From the NCBI GenBank assembly GCA_030616985.1, contig JAUWWG010000005.1:1-41180 (forward strand): DNA of 41,180 nt, in the 5' to 3' direction. Position 1 is the stretch's first letter. Every line of letters begins with the position of its first letter. The position numbers and the translations under genes are program-made. Origin of the DNA: Thermoplasmatota archaeon. GTDB lineage: Archaea > Thermoplasmatota > E2 > DHVEG-1. Below are positions 15,609-40,092 of the stretch, piece by piece. A model generated the notes under the pieces. It made no database searches. It was not told the origin of the DNA and was given only the letters and a program-made list of their open reading frames with translations.

Positions 15609-16778
15609 CTATAACTCTAGTATGTATCTCAATATTGGAAACATGTGTGGATGATTCTCCAGGAAGTCTAGGAATGATGTGTTGATTGCTTTGTTTTTTG
15701 GCATGCTGATTGGCAACGGATCTGACCATACGCCCTCGAGGTCATGACTATCCTTAGCTTTTACTTTGATCGCATATGACCCTCCGACATTCCATATATG
15801 AGATACGCTTACGATATCACCAGAGTTGTACGGCCCTTTCCATCCGCTTGTTGTTCCATCATCCCAATCGAACATATAGTAAATATGATCGCCATCTGGA
15901 TCAGTAGTCAACGATTCATATGAATAAGATACTCCCACTTTTCCATGTGTTGAACCTGAAGGTCTGACTGGTTTTTCTGGTGGATGATTTTCACTAGAGA
16001 TTACAACTGTTAACGCCGATGAAAAACCACTCTGAGCGCCGTAAACATCCTCGGCTTTCACTTTAACATAATATGTATCGGCAGAAGGCCACGAATGAGA
16101 GACACTGCAAGCCGATCCAGATGAATGGAAACCTGTCCATTCATCAACGATACTATCTCCGTCCCAGTCCCATCCATACTTAATATTATTACCGTCAAAA
16201 TCGGTTGTATATGTAGAATAAGTATATGGCGTTCCAACAGTTCCTGATGAATAACCAGATGGCCGATTTGGTGTATTCGGAGGCATATTATCAGATATTA
16301 CAACGGTTAGGGTGGGAGAGAAATTACTTTGGGCACCATTTATATCTTCGGCAATGACACTTAGATAATATGTTCCAGGATAAGCAAACAATATCCATAC
16401 GTTACACATTACTCCAGATGGGTGGAAAGGTGTCCAGTTATCCTCATTTACAATACCATCTCCATTAAAATCCCAACCATACTTTACATAGTCTCCATCG
16501 GGATCGGTGGTATATGTAAAATACGGATACCATATACAAGTTATTCCTGATATGGGTCCTGATGGTTTATTTGGAGTATTTGGAGGCGTATTGTTAAGTA
16601 TTATACAATGAGTTTCAAACATGGGGTCACTGGTAACAATAGTATGATCATCATACATCTTCATGATGGGATTCTTTTCAAGAGATGGCGTACTAGTTGT
16701 GTGGGTTCCTGGTGAGGATATGGCAAAACTTAGAATTAACAGCATACAAACAAAAATTCCAATTATTTTCTTTCGCAT
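15609..16778 (-). CDS. Secreted PKD-domain surface protein with INTxF...LRxLL C-terminal tail
   Basis: Signal peptide MRKKIIGIFVCMLLILSFAISS; three PKD-like units (TTDPDGDxxKYGWD...); tail PKNKAINTSFLDFLENHPHMFPILRYILEL. Confidence 0.9.
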   Translation of the reverse strand: MRKKIIGIFVCMLLILSFAISSPGTHTTSTPSLEKNPIMKMYDDHTIVTSDPMFETHCIILNNTPPNTPNKPSGPISGITCIWYPYFTYTTDPDGDYVKYGWDFNGDGIVNEDNWTPFHPSGVMCNVWILFAYPGTYYLSVIAEDINGAQSNFSPTLTVVISDNMPPNTPNRPSGYSSGTVGTPYTYSTYTTDFDGNNIKYGWDWDGDSIVDEWTGFHSSGSACSVSHSWPSADTYYVKVKAEDVYGAQSGFSSALTVVISSENHPPEKPVRPSGSTHGKVGVSYSYESLTTDPDGDHIYYMFDWDDGTTSGWKGPYNSGDIVSVSHIWNVGGSYAIKVKAKDSHDLEGVWSDPLPISMPKNKAINTSFLDFLENHPHMFPILRYILEL

Positions 16779-16962
16779 AATCTTTTCCCCCTAAAACCAA
16801 TCTACATATATCATTTAAATTTTTTGTAGAGAACCTGTTACATTTGTCGAATAATTGCACGGATATTCACTTCAACATTAATTTTAGAATGAGTTGGTAT
16901 TGGTAAATTACCTATGAAAACATTAAAGAAAGAAAAAAAGAAAATAGTTTTTGAAGATTATT

Positions 16963-18663
16963 CTATGTATCCAACAGGTATCTTAATATCAAAAACATAC
17001 GTGGATGTTGCTCTAGGAATCTTAAGAACGGTGTGTTGATCGCTTTGTTTCTAGGCATGCTTATAGGTAGTGGATCTGACCACACACCTTCAGCACCATT
17101 AATATCTTTGGCTTTTACTTTGATTTGATATGTTCCTTGTACAATCCATACATGTGATACACTTGCTGTTTGACCTGAATTGTAGGGTCCTTTCCATCCG
17201 CTATCTGAGCCATCGTCCCAGTCAAATAAATAGTAAATCTGGTCTCCATCTGGATCAGTGGTGGATGCGGAATACGTGTATGAGTTACCTGTCTTTCCTG
17301 ACGTTGGACCTGTGATAGTTGGTTTATTTGGCGGATCATTAATAACAACTGTTTTTGCAGATGAAAATCCACTCTGCGCTCCATTTGAATCCTCTGCCAT
17401 TACTTTTACATTGTACGTACCAGCAGTAGGCCACGAATGCGCTATGCTAAATGTTGTTCCGGATGCATAGAATCCTGTCCACTCATCAACAATGCCGTTT
17501 CCATTCCAATCCCAACCATACTTGACATTGTCTCCATCAGGATCAGTTGTACTTGTGGTGTATATGTAGGAGGTCCCAGTATTTCCAGACGAGGGGCCAG
17601 AAGGCGTATTTGGAGTATTTGGTGCATTGTTGGCACCTGTTATAATAACCATCAATTTATCGGAAAAACCACTCTGAGCTCCATGTACATCCTCAGCTTT
17701 CACTTGTAAATAGTATGTACCTGCACTTAAAAATTTAACATTTTGACTGCATATTGCTCCAGAAGGATAGAAAACTGTCCACCAATCAACGACATTATCT
17801 CCATGTCCATCCCAACCATACTTAACATTGTCTCCATCAGGATCAGTCGTATTTGTTGTATATGTGTAAATCTCTCCGACAATACCTGTTGTAGGTCCTG
17901 ATGGCTTACTGGGTGTATTTGGTGGATAATTGGATGGCCCCCCAGTAATCACAAAAGCTAGGTTGAGTGACTCCAGAGAAAACGGATCATGCATCTCTAT
18001 CCAATTCAACTCACCCAAAAAGGCCCAACACGCGTCATCATTCCAACGATCTTCAGGTAGACATGACTTCCAGCCCCATCTTGGCTGGGGAGGTTCCGGT
18101 TGCGGTATAACGATTGCAGAGATGGCTAACCAGTAGATAGTTCCCTCCTCCTGCCAGAACCAATCTCCCTCATCGAGGAAAATGTTGTACTGCCAGTACA
18201 GGAAATGGTTTTCTGGGATAACAACCCCCTCAGCAGGATCATACCACCCTTGAGGTCCTTCCCACGGGCCAGCCTCGATCCATTCACCAACGTCGAACAT
18301 CTGCCCCCATAGTGTCTCACCGGGCATGCTGTATCCCGTTGGACTTTGATCTGCAGGAATATCTGCATGGATAGCTATCGTGAAGGCACTAATTGTCCCC
18401 ACGTTGTCTCCGAGCCATGAGCCCCAAAAGTGGATATCTTTAACCCATCCAGTCTCCGAGCAATTCCAATCATCTGCGAGGACATTTTGAGGCCATAATT
18501 GTTCGACATAGGTTGCATCGACGTCCCATCCAAATGGATCCGGCATTTGCGGCCAATGCATCTTGTGCCCATCTTCTTCATCCCAATCGGCCAAAATAGT
18601 AAGTGATGTGCTAGCAAGTATCAATAACGTACAAACAAAAATTCCAATTATTTTCTTTCGCAT
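16963..18663 (-). CDS. Secreted PKD-domain surface protein, paralogue of the 15609-16778 gene, with an extra N-terminal Trp-rich domain
   Basis: Signal peptide MRKKIIGIFVCTLLILASTSL; N-terminal domain (VLADDWNCSETGWVKDIHFWGSW); three PKD-like units; tail PRNKAINTPFLRFLEQHPRMFLILRYLLDT. Confidence 0.9.
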   Translation of the reverse strand: MRKKIIGIFVCTLLILASTSLTILADWDEEDGHKMHWPQMPDPFGWDVDATYVEQLWPQNVLADDWNCSETGWVKDIHFWGSWLGDNVGTISAFTIAIHADIPADQSPTGYSMPGETLWGQMFDVGEWIEAGPWEGPQGWYDPAEGVVIPENHFLYWQYNIFLDEGDWFWQEEGTIYWLAISAIVIPQPEPPQPRWGWKSCLPEDRWNDDACWAFLGELNWIEMHDPFSLESLNLAFVITGGPSNYPPNTPSKPSGPTTGIVGEIYTYTTNTTDPDGDNVKYGWDGHGDNVVDWWTVFYPSGAICSQNVKFLSAGTYYLQVKAEDVHGAQSGFSDKLMVIITGANNAPNTPNTPSGPSSGNTGTSYIYTTSTTDPDGDNVKYGWDWNGNGIVDEWTGFYASGTTFSIAHSWPTAGTYNVKVMAEDSNGAQSGFSSAKTVVINDPPNKPTITGPTSGKTGNSYTYSASTTDPDGDQIYYLFDWDDGSDSGWKGPYNSGQTASVSHVWIVQGTYQIKVKAKDINGAEGVWSDPLPISMPRNKAINTPFLRFLEQHPRMFLILRYLLDT

Positions 18664-32870: not shown

Positions 32871-33124
32871 AAGTGAGTGGAGAGGATGGGATGCAATGAT
32901 ACAGGGTTCTATTTTTTAGGAGGGAACACTGCGTTATCGCATAAAAAAAATTCTCCCCACTCAATAATATATTAGTAATTTCTAGTATAAATATCTTCTT
33001 AACAAAATAAACACCTATAACTTTCTATTACAACATTTGTTTCATTTATATCGAACCAAAAAACTTATATTATTATAAATGATGCAATATATTGAAATTT
33101 CTGTTTTTTGGATGGGGGGAACAT
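32871..33124 (+). repeat. Copy 1 of ~250 bp duplicated leader/promoter block
   Basis: Extended identity with 35021-35270, e.g. CCCCACTCAATAATATATTAGTAATTTCTAGTATAAATATCTTCTTAACAAAATAAACACCTATAA and TTTTTTGGATGGGGGGAACA. Confidence 0.95.
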
Positions 33125-33144
33125 AACAAGGGAGGTAGAAAAAA

Positions 33145-33513
33145 ATGAAAAAGAAAATAATTGCAATAGGAATATTGATGCTAATGATTGCGGTTGCCAT
33201 GCCGACAACCAACGCTATGAATATTGAAGAAAACGAGGTTTCGACTCAGGCACCCTGGCTCAGAATAGGCTTCGTCAGAGGCGAGGTAACAAACATACGA
33301 GAGGAATACTGGGAAGGTCGGCTGTTTTACAATTGCACCGCTGTCGATGTGAAAATCACATGGTATACCTATACTTTTCCGTTGTCTTTCACTATCGAAA
33401 GGGTAGACGTTCCAGAAACCGATTGGTTTGCCTTTTGGGATTCGAGCTTCATCGGAATACTTAGAGACGGGCTAATTTTTGGTTGGTTCATTAGCGCGGG
33501 GCTATCAGTATGA
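33145..33513 (+). CDS. Small secreted/surface protein, unknown function
   Basis: Signal peptide MKKKIIAIGILMLMIAVAMPTTNA, RBS ggaggt, mature part ~97 aa with hydrophobic C-terminal stretch. Confidence 0.8.
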   Translation: MKKKIIAIGILMLMIAVAMPTTNAMNIEENEVSTQAPWLRIGFVRGEVTNIREEYWEGRLFYNCTAVDVKITWYTYTFPLSFTIERVDVPETDWFAFWDSSFIGILRDGLIFGWFISAGLSV

Positions 33514-33536: not shown

Positions 33537-33682
33537 ATGAAGAAAAAAATAATAGTGACTATGAGATAATCGGCGTATCTCTTTCAATACCTAAAACCAA
33601 AGAAATCAACACACCATTTATAGACTTCCCAGAAAACCATCCACATCTGTTCCCACTGCTACGACAATTGCTGGGGCTATAG
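33537..33682 (+). pseudogene. Collapsed surface-protein gene: start codon and MKKKII fused out of frame to an INTPF...LRxLL C-terminal tail
   Basis: ATGAAGAAAAAAATAATAGTGACTATGAGATAA (33537-33569); +2 frame 33554-33682 reads SDYEIIGVSLSIPKTKEINTPFIDFPENHPHLFPLLRQLLGL*. Confidence 0.75.
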
Positions 33683-34053: not shown

Positions 34054-34102
34054 ACATCTCTTGAAAAGGTAGTTATGAAATTGTAGAGCTGGAGGGAGAA
34101 AA

Positions 34103-34204
34103 ATGCAAGATGCCTATGCAAGACATGTAGAAAAAAGAATAAAAGAACTGCATGAGAGGATGCCTAAATCTAAATTACATACTACTAAGAAGTGCAAGTA
34201 TTGA
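34103..34204 (+). CDS. 33-aa microprotein, copy 1
   Basis: RBS ggaggg; MQDAYARHVEKRIKELHERMPKSKLHTTKKCKY*; paralogue at 34634. Confidence 0.75.
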   Translation: MQDAYARHVEKRIKELHERMPKSKLHTTKKCKY

Positions 34205-34256
34205 ATATTCATCTCTTGAAAAGGCGGTTTGGGATTGTAGATTTAAGGAGTAGAAA

Positions 34257-34568: not shown

Positions 34569-34633
34569 ACCTCTGAAAAATTGGATTTATAAAGTATTAC
34601 TTATTGGTAAATTGTGGATTTGTGAGGTGAACC

Positions 34634-34735
34634 ATGTCAGATGCCTATGCACGACATGTAGAAAAAAGAATAAAAGAACTGCATGAAAGGATGTCTAAAT
34701 CTAAACTGCATTCTACTAAGAAAAATAAATATTAA
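34634..34735 (+). CDS. 33-aa microprotein, copy 2
   Basis: RBS-like gaggtga; MSDAYARHVEKRIKELHERMSKSKLHSTKKNKY*; paralogue at 34103. Confidence 0.75.
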   Translation: MSDAYARHVEKRIKELHERMSKSKLHSTKKNKY

Positions 34736-34976
34736 AACAGAATTTTCCAAGATACTTTCCTCAATCTGAGTTCGCCTTTTTTCATTTTGACATTTTATCG
34801 AGGTAGTTTTAAATACTTTAAATGTTAAAGAGTAACGTGCTATGCAATAACATAGTGAAAAGTGGTAGAATTAGAACAGGAAGTGGTTGGTATCTATATT
34901 GATTTTTTGTTAGAGGCAATATTTAAGAGCATGAAGAAAAAACATTAGTGGTCTCGCTTGGATTTTTAATAAAAAC

Positions 34977-35081: not shown

Positions 35082-35270
35082 CATAATAGTTTAAAATGAC
35101 TCCCCACTCAATAATATATTAGTAATTTCTAGTATAAATATCTTCTTAACAAAATAAACACCTATAAATTTCTATTGCAACAAATGTTTCATTAATATCC
35201 AACCGAAAAACTTATATTATTATAATTGATGCATTATATTGAAAATTTTGTTTTTTGGATGGGGGGAACA
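35021..35270 (+). repeat. Copy 2 of ~250 bp duplicated leader/promoter block
   Basis: Extended identity with 32871-33124. Confidence 0.95.
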
Positions 35271-35292
35271 GAATGATCGGGGGTGGAAGGAA

Positions 35293-38200
35293 ATGAAAAG
35301 AAAAATAGTAGGTATTTTAGTTGTTATACTCCTGAGTACTAGTACCGTTTTGCCTGTAACGGGGATTATAGATATTTATAGAGAACATGAAAATGCACAT
35401 AATAGTTATAATTCAGATTTTCATTCTTCGAATAAATATGCATGGTCTGGAGAAGGTCATGGTTTAGACAATGAGGGGATTATTTCTGTTGTTGTTTCTA
35501 GTTATTTTCCTGTTTATCTGAGTTTTTCAACAAGTTATGAAATTTTTAGTCCAGATATGGGTATGGTTGAATTATCAACGGATGGTGGGTATAATTGGTA
35601 TCCAATGGATTCTATTACTGGGGTTCAGATGGATTGGACTATTCGGAGTGTTGATATTTCTTCATTTGCAGGTTTACCTGTTTTAATAAGGTTTAGATAT
35701 ACTACGGGGTCATATTCAACAAGTGGAGGATGGTATGTGGATACAATCAGTGTTAAAGATGATGTTGTTGAGGATTTTGAGGGTTATAATGATGGTGATT
35801 ATTGGGGTGATTGGGTTATTATTGAGGAAACTGGTGATCTTCCACCTACCGTGGGTGTAACATTTCCAAGTAGTGGGGATACTGTGACTGGCACTATAGT
35901 TATTACTGGTGAGGCTCATGATCCTAATGGAGATGAGACGCTTGATTGGGTGATGGTAAATATTGATAATAGTGGTTGGGAGTATGCAGATGGTACCTCA
36001 TCTTGGAGCTATGTATGGGATACTACAACTGTGAATGATGGATCGCATATTATTTCTGCTATTGCTTCTGATGGATTTTTTCAGTCACCTGTTGCATCTG
36101 TTTCGGTAATTGTTGATAATGGTGTGGGACCAGGTGATCAACCTGATCTAGTTATTACAGATGTTTGGGATGAGAATGACTTGATTTATTACCAGATAAG
36201 GAACATTGGTGATGACAATGCTTCTGGTGAACATTTAACTGAATTGTATGTGGATTATGAGAATAAAGCTGGTGATTTGGTTGATATGGTTCTGGCCCCG
36301 GGTGAGAGATTTACCTCAAATTTTGATTATGATTGGGATTGCGCGGAGTTGGAGGTTTATATTTGGGCAATTGCCGATAACAAAGATGTTATAGATGAAA
36401 GTAATGAGACAAATAATAAAAGAGAAGAACTATGGAAATGTGATACAACGGCTCCTGAGATTATATATGGTCCTGTTGTACAGAATGTTGCTCAGAATTC
36501 AGCAACAATTAATTGGAAGACTAATGAGGATTGTGATAGCACTGTAAGGTTTGATAGTTATGCTGGTGAGTATAACAATGTTGTGGGGGATTCTGAGTTG
36601 GTTAAGGTGCATAATGTTGAGTTAACCGGTCTTAACCCTAGTACAGTATATCATTATATGGTTGAATCCATGGATGCTACCGGAAATCAGGTTAAAAGCC
36701 GTGATTATTATTTTGCTACTTCACAGGTTTCGGATAATGTGAAACCATCTCTATTTCCCTTTATTCCTGATGTACTTTCAGGTATTGTAGATATTTCTGT
36801 TGATGTTTCGGATAATGTTGGTGTTGATTTGGTTCATTTTTCTTGTGATGATGATCCAATATTTACTGATTATTCACCTCCATATGAATTTGGATTTTAT
36901 ACTGGAGGCCTATTAGACGGTGAGCATGATTTTGGTTTTGATGCGGTTGATGAAGCGGGTAATTCAGCATCTGAATCTCTAAGAGGGGAAATAATGAATA
37001 AATTCCCTCCAGATCTTGAACCACCCTTAAATGTTCATATTGTTCATCCAGTTGATGAAGGAGAATATGTGATTGGAGATCAGATACATATAATTGCGTT
37101 AATAGAATCAGAAATTGATACTTGTCTCGAGCAATATGAGATAATATTAGATGATAGTATACCTTTGTGTTCAGAAGTATTTGAATGCCCCCCATGGATA
37201 GAAGTCACCATTCCTGGACTCCTGGAGCATTATAATGGTGGTATTTTTGAGCATTATATTGGTGAGGGGAAATTTTGGTGGATTCATTATTGGTGGAATA
37301 CAACAGATTATAGACCATTTGGTACCTCAAAAATAAGAGTAAGTGCATGGGATAATCATAATAATAATGCTACTGATTGGGTTGAATTTAATCTTAATAT
37401 TCCTCCACCTGATGTTCAGGTTTTTCGTGAGGTAAGAAGAAGGGGTAAATATTACTAGGTTTTATTAAGGATTAGGAATAATGGAGTTTTACCAATATAA
37501 GATTTTAATATATACGATACTAGTGTTGGTTTCCAATGTGTTCCATCCTCGATATTACCTAGTGATGTCACTATTATAGGTGGTGCAGAATCATATAATG
37601 ATGGCCAAAATATATTTAGCCGAGGAGATTTTAGTGAGATACAAATTCGTTACCCTGGCTATATCCGCTTGGAGCAAAATGAGGAACTACAATTATCATA
37701 TTATGTAATACCTGTACTATATGACTCTACCAACTCTGTTGTAATCGAGGGTTTAGAGTGGGATAGTGGAACCATAGCTGTCCCTCATGTTATTGGACAC
37801 AAGTTATTAATTGAATTTAATAGTTTAAAAAAGAAACATTCACTTCAGCGGGATGATTTAAGAGTAGATCTAACCAGCAATTTAGAGCATAGATGTGTAG
37901 ATGATGTCTCTTGTGCATTTAGTGATGCTGATTACTTAATCATTACCAGTCCTGCAAGATTATGTTCTGAAAATCCTGATAGTCTAGATGAGGTTAATAA
38001 CCTATTGGTCTCTATGGCAGAATTAGCACGGTTGAAAAATGGTGTACTTGGTTATACGTTGAAAAGAAGTGCGTCGGGTGTTAAAGGAAATATTAAAGCC
38101 TATGATGGTGATTGGTTTGTCAAACTTTGTCCTCCTCTAGATGATGGAAGGGGTCCCTTTAATTATTTGCTTCTTGTAGGTGAAAATGAGATTATCCCAT

Positions 38201-40092
38201 CACCTCGTAGTAGTAGAACATTTGATCCATTTGGGGATGATGTACATGTTGATTTAATAGATATTCCCTACGCCAATATTAAACCTAATGGTAAACCAGA
38301 TATTTCAGTTGGTAGAATAATTGGAAATACAACATCTGCTTTAATTGAACCTATTCAAAACAGTATAAAAGTACATGAAAATGAACACGGATACGATTTT
38401 GATCGAGACAAAGTTATGCTGATTAGTGGTACTGGGGAAGGTGTATCTAGTTTTCAGAGAAGTGTAAATGATATTTATGATATTATCACATCAGACCCAA
38501 CATATGGAGAGGTAAATAAAGTGCATTGGAGGAATTATCCTGGTACAGAGTTAGACACGTTTAATTATTACAGTCCAAATACAGATATCGTTGTTTTTAG
38601 GGATCATGGTAATTATGACTCTTGGCAACCCGGTATGAGCACTAATAGTGCGAACGGACTTGATTTTGGCAGTTCTAAACCTTTTATCTTCGCTCTTGCA
38701 TGTCGCACTGGTGATTATGAAAATAATGATGACTATAACATCGCGGAGGCATTCTTTGAAAGTGGCGCTGCTGTCTATATTGGTTCAACAGAAGATTCAT
38801 CGAGAAGTGAAAATAATGCTGCAGGAAAATGGTTTTTCAGAAACTGGGATGAACATGAATCTCTCGGAAAAAACCTCAAGGATCTTAAGAGACATTATTA
38901 TGGAGAGGATGATATGTGGAAGTATTGGTGTTATGAATATAATCTTTATGGAGACCCAAAATATGGAGCAACTGAGGCTGTAGCCCTAGAGGATAATACA
39001 GATGATTCAGCCATAATAAAAATGGATCTTGGGGAGCCTTCCTCATCGATTAATGTTATCGTTCCTGACTATGTGGTAACCACCTATGAAGGATTGGATT
39101 ATGTGGAAATCCCTAATGGTGAGATTTTTTCTGTAGAGGATGGCCGACCAGAAGTTCCTTACTATAATATATACATTGAATATCCAATTGGATATCGGGT
39201 TCAAGATGTAATGCTGGATGAAAGATATGGTTTAATGACTGACATAGGTTTAGAACTTCCTATTGTAGTATTAAATGAATTTAATGGCTCTATTGAAGAA
39301 ACGAAAGGAGAATGGTATCCAGAAATTGATTACACATGGAGGATTGAGAAGAATGATGATAGAAGCACAACTCTCATTATTAGTATGTATCCATTCTACT
39401 ATAATCCTGATACCACAATGGTGAAATTCTATAAAAATTATGATTTTGAGATTGAGTATGTCTCTACTGATATGACGATAACTGCCTTGTATACTGATAA
39501 ATATATCTACAAACCAGGAGATAAAGTGGTAATAGACCTATGGTTCGAGAACTTAGGTGAACAAGAAGATTTTATTGCAAACTTAGTAATTAAACATGAT
39601 GTGACTGAGGAGGTTGTTGATGGTTTATTTTTGAGATCACTTAAAGATTTAAATGGTCTAGGTTCCTACTCAATTACTTGGAATTCTCACGACACACTCT
39701 CAGATTCCTATAATATTGAGGCAATCATTACTGATACCTCTGGGAATATACTGGATACTGAGACTGATATGATTTATCTGGAGACACCCTCGTCTTTGGA
39801 GATAGAATCTATTTCAGGTGGTTTTGGTGTAACAGCAGTTGTTGAAAATACTGGCATCGAGAATTTAACTGATTTAAAATGGTCAATATCAATAGAAGGG
39901 AATATAACCTTCATTGGTGGATATAAAGAGGGCAATATTGACTTGTTGAAACCAGGGGATGGTTTTACAATTAAAAGTGGTTTTATGCTTGGTTTTGGAC
40001 CTGCGGAGATTGTTGTTAATGTTGCTGGTGTTTCAAAGAAAGCTAGTTGTTTTGTGATTGGTCCATTTGTACTAGACGTTCAGGAAAAATAG
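35293..40092 (+). pseudogene. Large secreted C25 (gingipain-like) peptidase with Ig-like/CARDB/FN3-like repeats, interrupted by two in-frame stops (TAG 37456-37458, TAA 37498-37500)
   Basis: ORFs 35239-37458 and 37669-40092 share a frame; in-between reading VLLRIRNNGVLPI*DFNIYDTSVGFQCVPSSILPSDVTIIGGAESYNDGQNIFSRGDFSEIQIRYPGYIRLEQNE is continuous protein-like sequence; C25 motifs VVFRDHGNYDSW and FALACRTGDY...AEAFFESGAAVYIGSTE. Confidence 0.8.

Follow-up and report, generated by a model that had tools for sequence, protein, structure and literature searches.

What is a tail of some 30 residues doing at the end of otherwise different secreted proteins? The question is raised by 41,180 nucleotides of DNA from a Thermoplasmatota archaeon (here called the window) that hold three copies of such a tail, at 15612-15701 and 16966-17055 on the reverse strand and at 33590-33679 on the forward strand. 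An earlier note on this DNA had placed and quoted all three correctly and had proposed them as a candidate for an undescribed surface-protein signal. The first tail, PKNKAINTSFLDFLENHPHMFPILRYILEL, forms the final 30 residues of a predicted secreted PKD-domain protein of 389 residues (15609-16778, reverse strand; Pfam PKD, E=1e-13), an open reading frame with the signal-peptide-like start MRKKIIGIFVCMLLIL. The second, PRNKAINTPFLRFLEQHPRMFLILRYLLDT, ends a predicted secreted protein of 566 residues (16963-18663, reverse strand) which starts with the signal-peptide-like MRKKIIGIFVCTLLIL and matches both DUF7901 (E=5e-49) and PKD (E=4e-16). Both tails were recognized from their open reading frames and by profile.

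The third tail, PKTKEINTPFIDFPENHPHLFPLLRQLLGL, was recognized from its sequence and by profile and runs into a stop codon at 33680-33682 in a decayed locus. Directly in front of it, in the same frame, lies an apparent remnant of a PapD-like Ig domain, namely its last strand (SDYEIIGVSLSI, 33554-33589, forward strand), a stretch of 12 residues with best scores of 36-49 against the PapD-like Ig class and a median of 16 over the other tails. Just 5' of the tail, in a different frame, is the remnant of a signal-peptide start, MKKKIIVTMR* (33537-33569, forward strand), the start codon of which is 17 bases upstream of the Ig-strand remnant. With a signal-peptide-like start in another frame adjoining an Ig-strand remnant and a tail, the locus looks like a gene relic that has lost nearly everything between its signal peptide and its tail. 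The statement that the tail follows the last PKD-like domain therefore holds for the two intact window proteins and not for the third locus, where the residues upstream belong to a PapD-like Ig strand. Solitary tails with no intact gene in front of them are frequent in this genome (L072:7941-8048, L075:3689-3754, L080:4847-4933 and window 33590-33679), which suggests that exoprotein genes decay fast.

The tail itself is conserved in a residue-specific manner. Its consensus over about 30 residues is P[KR]N[KR]..IN..FLxFLEx[HF]PxxFP[IL]LRxLLG[LY], and weighting the columns by genome gives P[KR]N[KR]..IN..[FL]L.[FL]LE.[HF]P..FP[IL]LR.LLG[LY], with the strongest conservation in F (0.93), L (0.92), P (0.85), L (0.80) and P (0.79) and a value of 0.66 for R. 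Among the three window tails, 14 of 30 residues are invariant. AlphaFold models of the tail on two unrelated host domains, the second a WG-type Ig domain (PapD/ASH-like), agree with one another: a well-folded domain is followed by a loose linker and then by two short helices, with the break between the helices at the conserved [HF]P in both. For the first window tail the predicted helices span residues 113-121 and 125-134 of the 135 modelled. The confidence in these helices is moderate, with pLDDT values of about 71-83 in one model and 62-74 in the other. Three representative tails gave no match in Pfam and no meaningful match in NCBIfam, so that the tail is indeed absent from both collections; the PDB contains no structure related to it, and the portions consulted of the open-licence literature on MBG-D peptidases do not mention it.

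Searched with a profile built from the three window tails, as the earlier note had proposed, the window's own genome of 2.05 Mb gives 39 matches at E<1e-3, or about 40 copies. The same profile matches 31 of 35 relatives from the same family and gives single weak matches at most outside it. A broader profile of 51 tails was run on 390 genomes of the phylum and is present in 42 of the 45 genomes of the family, with one to about 60 tails per genome; the four genomes matched outside the family (G174, G205 and G264 in f7, G237 in f11) may represent transfers or binning errors. In all the DNA fetched there are 244 distinct tails at E<1e-3, compared with none from 20 column-shuffled decoy profiles. 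When the HP-type core was compared with 84,980 species, each represented by one genome, all of the 74 matching loci came from Thermoplasmata metagenome-assembled genomes (MAGs) except for one contig labelled Heimdallarchaeota (L133, JABCTC010000107.1). This contig, which is 3.2 kb long with a coverage of 0.8 and whose tail is 94% identical to the consensus used as query, is probably a binning error. A viral origin was also considered and rejected, as viral contigs gave no match. One of the named HP-core matches, SG8-52-3, is a genome of the Thermoprofundales, or MBG-D archaea (PMC6461988), and the solved structure closest to a window PKD domain, 4xed, comes from another member of this group, the single cell SCGC AB-540-F20. 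These two observations identify the tail-bearing clade as Thermoprofundales.

The proteins that carry the tail have its position and an export signal in common. A stop codon is in view for 242 distinct tails. It follows within 12 residues in 237 of them and within 24 in three more; only two are internal, and the tail is not a mostly internal element. A simple signal-peptide rule was applied to complete carriers and called a signal-peptide-like start in 134 of 144 (93%), in contrast to 15 of 144 after the N-terminal codons were shuffled, which argues against a set of cytosolic proteins. In a comparison with neighbouring open reading frames, the figures were 118 of 126 carriers and 41%, many of the neighbours being exported or membrane proteins themselves. 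Beyond this, the carriers are diverse. The Pfam matches of 97 of them cover 48 families: PKD accounts for about 35, C25 and NosD for 6 each, DUF7901 and Big_7 for 4 each, C1 and M28 for 3 each, and C10 and arylsulfotransferase for 2 each, with FG-GAP and beta-propellers also found. A pattern-based sort of the domain that precedes 139 tails gave 76 PKD-like domains, 22 WG-type Ig domains and 41 others. By these matches the carriers appear to be dozens of unrelated secreted proteins, many of them protein-digesting enzymes. With its C-terminal position, accompanying export signal, unrelated hosts and many copies per genome, the tail is of a known general kind, the many-to-one C-terminal exoprotein tag, but a new type of it.

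Tags of this kind were recognized through the same traits (an extreme C-terminal site, a many-to-one pattern across the genome, and signal peptides on the same proteins), and one proposal is that the tail directs sorting or secretion and is acted on by a processing enzyme of its own, such as an unknown sortase, leading to cleavage or covalent attachment as for PGF-CTERM proteins or the cargo of the type IX secretion system (T9SS). PGF-CTERM, the target of archaeosortase A (PF18204), resembles the tail in being a many-to-one C-terminal region of archaeal exported proteins with PKD-type domains. However, of its PGF signature, membrane span and basic end the tail has none: not one of 126 complete carriers shows a hydrophobic span among its final 60 residues, and no curated CTERM model matches, in keeping with the earlier remark that the tail lacks this layout. 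The counts of PGF-CTERM per genome are uninformative, as its 23-position model matches everywhere, E. coli included. PGF-CTERM also needs an archaeosortase, and no match to the exosortase/archaeosortase family PF09721 was obtained in the window's genome (G000; its completeness is 89%, too low for this one absence to count as proof) or in the tail-rich relatives G006, G002, G026 and G034, all single-contig assemblies, while the family PF09721 is patchily present in other members of the clade. Given this and the missing span, an archaeosortase partner was rejected for the window's genome. That the tail has replaced PGF-CTERM is an anecdotal suggestion from a few sister-family proteins which end in PGF and a span. 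MYXO-CTERM and GlyGly-CTERM likewise occur in dozens of copies per genome at the C-termini of exported proteins of one clade, but they are tripartite, with a signature motif, a membrane helix and a basic tail (PMC11980579, PMC6219818), and the Thermoprofundales tail is not.

The comparison with T9SS is suggested by the C25 (gingipain-type) peptidases that abound in tail genomes, since the T9SS sortase belongs to the same family. Here too a Sec signal peptide is combined with a C-terminal module (Por_Secre_tail, TIGR04183) on C25 and other secreted peptidases. However, the T9SS module is a beta domain of about 70 residues (72 positions in TIGR04183), whereas the tail consists of two predicted helices in about 30. 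TIGR04183 has no match in the window's genome and is missing from most relatives (6 of 40 genomes matched); domains resembling it score above the cut-off in a few Thermoplasmata MAGs of the family or order (G022, G013, G012, G042). SprA (PF14349) gave no match in 40 genomes, a result qualified by control genomes that did not match either. T9SS is thus unsupported for the window's genome, from which Por_Secre_tail is missing. A conserved neighbouring gene as the processing enzyme was rejected as well, since the recurrent neighbours of tail genes are mostly other exoprotein families.

Two further observations bear on cleavage. No conserved cleavage motif is evident in the tail, and both internal copies are found in secreted proteins: in one (L098), a proline-rich linker and a further domain come after the motif, and in the other (L192), a tandem pair lies within a metallophosphatase-like protein. 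Such copies would be easier to explain for a module that binds than for a signal that is cleaved off. Without a span or basic cluster, and with no archaeosortase match in several tail-rich genomes, a cleaved sorting signal like those of CTERM proteins or T9SS cargo is improbable. The earlier candidate, an undescribed surface-protein signal, is largely supported: none of the four outcomes named as refuting it (a mostly internal tail, cytosolic carriers, one paralogous family by descent, an entry in the catalogues) was observed. Sorting by an archaeosortase or in the T9SS manner is not supported, and an action of the tail at the cell surface would still be presumed.

Since none of the 126 carriers has a C-terminal span, other means must hold them if they are retained. 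One such means would be an in-plane membrane anchor, with the two amphipathic helices inserted into the archaeal lipid layer on its outer side; the tail is hydrophobic, helical and C-terminal, and its hosts have no other anchor. However, extreme amphipathy was rejected, as hydrophobic moments are ordinary in comparison with shuffled tails (p 0.05-0.23). Moreover, specific residues and prolines are conserved beyond the needs of lipid binding, and beyond what amphipathy alone would require. We consider a lipid anchor somewhat more unlikely still than a sorting signal.

A different kind of information comes from the comparison of the tail with the domain to which it is attached, for which 93 PKD-plus-tail ends from six genera were used. 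Tail identity is 0.555 within and 0.446 between genera, a difference far beyond that from label shuffling, whereas the PKD domains (0.439 and 0.422) stay inside the shuffled range. The nearest neighbour belongs to the same genus for 85% of the tails and for 53% of the adjoining PKD domains, and the two identities are uncorrelated (-0.02). Tail types differ from genus to genus: the window's genus has FLENHP..FPLLRQLLGL, g12 has F[EQ][RQ]FP.AFPILRHL.GY, and g20 has an extended FPILQRLLQRLGLQ. With tails structured by genus, PKD domains hardly so and no correlation between them, the tail evolves by itself and in concert within a lineage. Together with the diversity of hosts, this excludes a single paralogous family related by descent, one of the outcomes that could have undone the earlier proposal.

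Homogenization of tails and not of PKD domains is what one expects if one partner fits every tail of a lineage, and the simplest reading of these comparisons would be a common partner imposing its own tail type on each lineage. Gene conversion or duplication could account for part of the pattern, identical tail residues being encoded by different codons in 46% of cases against 57% expected (50% against 54% for the PKD region). In its extreme form, the tail and its terminator would be a 3' cassette that hitch-hikes through duplication and gene conversion and has no function of its own. Some copies do share DNA beyond the stop codon, the best pair of flanks being 87% identical, and solitary tails without intact genes exist, as at 33590 in the window and in short open reading frames. 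However, the 3' flanks of most copies bear no relation to one another (mean pairwise identity 0.38), and synonymous codons have diverged, with identical residues often encoded differently. Since the protein residues are also kept across some 25 genera, we regard a functionless cassette as the least probable of the explanations considered here. Only marginally less improbable is self-association, by which tails would pair with one another and join exoproteins into homo- or hetero-oligomers. The tail types common within a lineage and the natural tandem pair of L192 would fit it, but no other specific pointer to pairing was found.

We are therefore left with a reading to which we give an even chance, that the tail is a non-covalent docking module for a shared, lineage-specific surface partner of secreted Thermoprofundales proteins. 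It best accounts for where the tail sits, for the range of its hosts, for its conserved residues and lineage types, and for the two internal copies, and is also favored by the same two-helix model on two host folds and by carriers with signal-peptide-like starts and no C-terminal span. The host protein would be exported via Sec by its N-terminal signal peptide, and its C-terminus would then display the two predicted helices, broken at [HF]P, on a flexible linker of the PKNK type. The conserved F, P, L and R of the tail would face the putative cell-surface partner, which would keep enzymes and adhesins on the cell or close to it. Neither a receptor nor a scaffold was found, and no obvious machine emerged among the genes conserved next to tail genes. 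It could also be that tailed proteins are simply released rather than held at the surface.

A functional analogy is offered by dockerin, another small C-terminal helical module that ties diverse secreted enzymes to one partner. The likeness ends there, as dockerin has calcium-binding DxDxDG loops in paired F-hand repeats, while neither the tail consensus nor its weighted columns contain DxDxDG and Pfam gives no match. Separately, a dockerin-like repeat (DINGDGTVNISDL...DLDGNGVINLRDL) ends a C25 peptidase in the MAG CP070724 (L287:649-3078). A more far-reaching and rather doubtful proposal is that a single helical tag and a single putative scaffold or receptor hold much of the extracellular protein-degrading equipment of Thermoprofundales on the cell, an arrangement similar to the cellulosome but made of unrelated parts.

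MBG-D archaea are known for their many predicted exported peptidases. They are among the most frequently found archaea of sediments (PMC6461988), and isotope probing revealed no protein uptake by them under the test employed (PMC9123169). The tail bears on whether the cells keep these exported enzymes or lose them to the sediment. Being shared, it singles out a portion of the secreted proteins, predicts that they are handled in common and provides a bait for the partner, and among the prokaryotic C-terminal protein tags known so far it would be an additional kind, neither membrane-spanning nor of the T9SS type.

Other repeated elements were seen along the way. Within the window, a 212-bp region comprising upstream DNA and the start of a coding sequence occurs before two different secreted proteins (32946-33157 and 35093-35304; 87% identical), and a 128-bp direct repeat (34078-34205 and 34609-34736; 82% identical) holds two copies of a tiny open reading frame of the MQDAYARHVEKRIKELHERMPKSKLHTTKKCKY type. 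The clade also has another recurrent C-terminal end, an Ig-like domain closing with FGFGxxxIxVTA...GPFxLxV, which is common on C25 peptidases that lack the tail. It is found on the window's own C25 peptidase (37669-40092) as well as at L288, L296, L298, L301, L309, L149, L153, L160 and L161.
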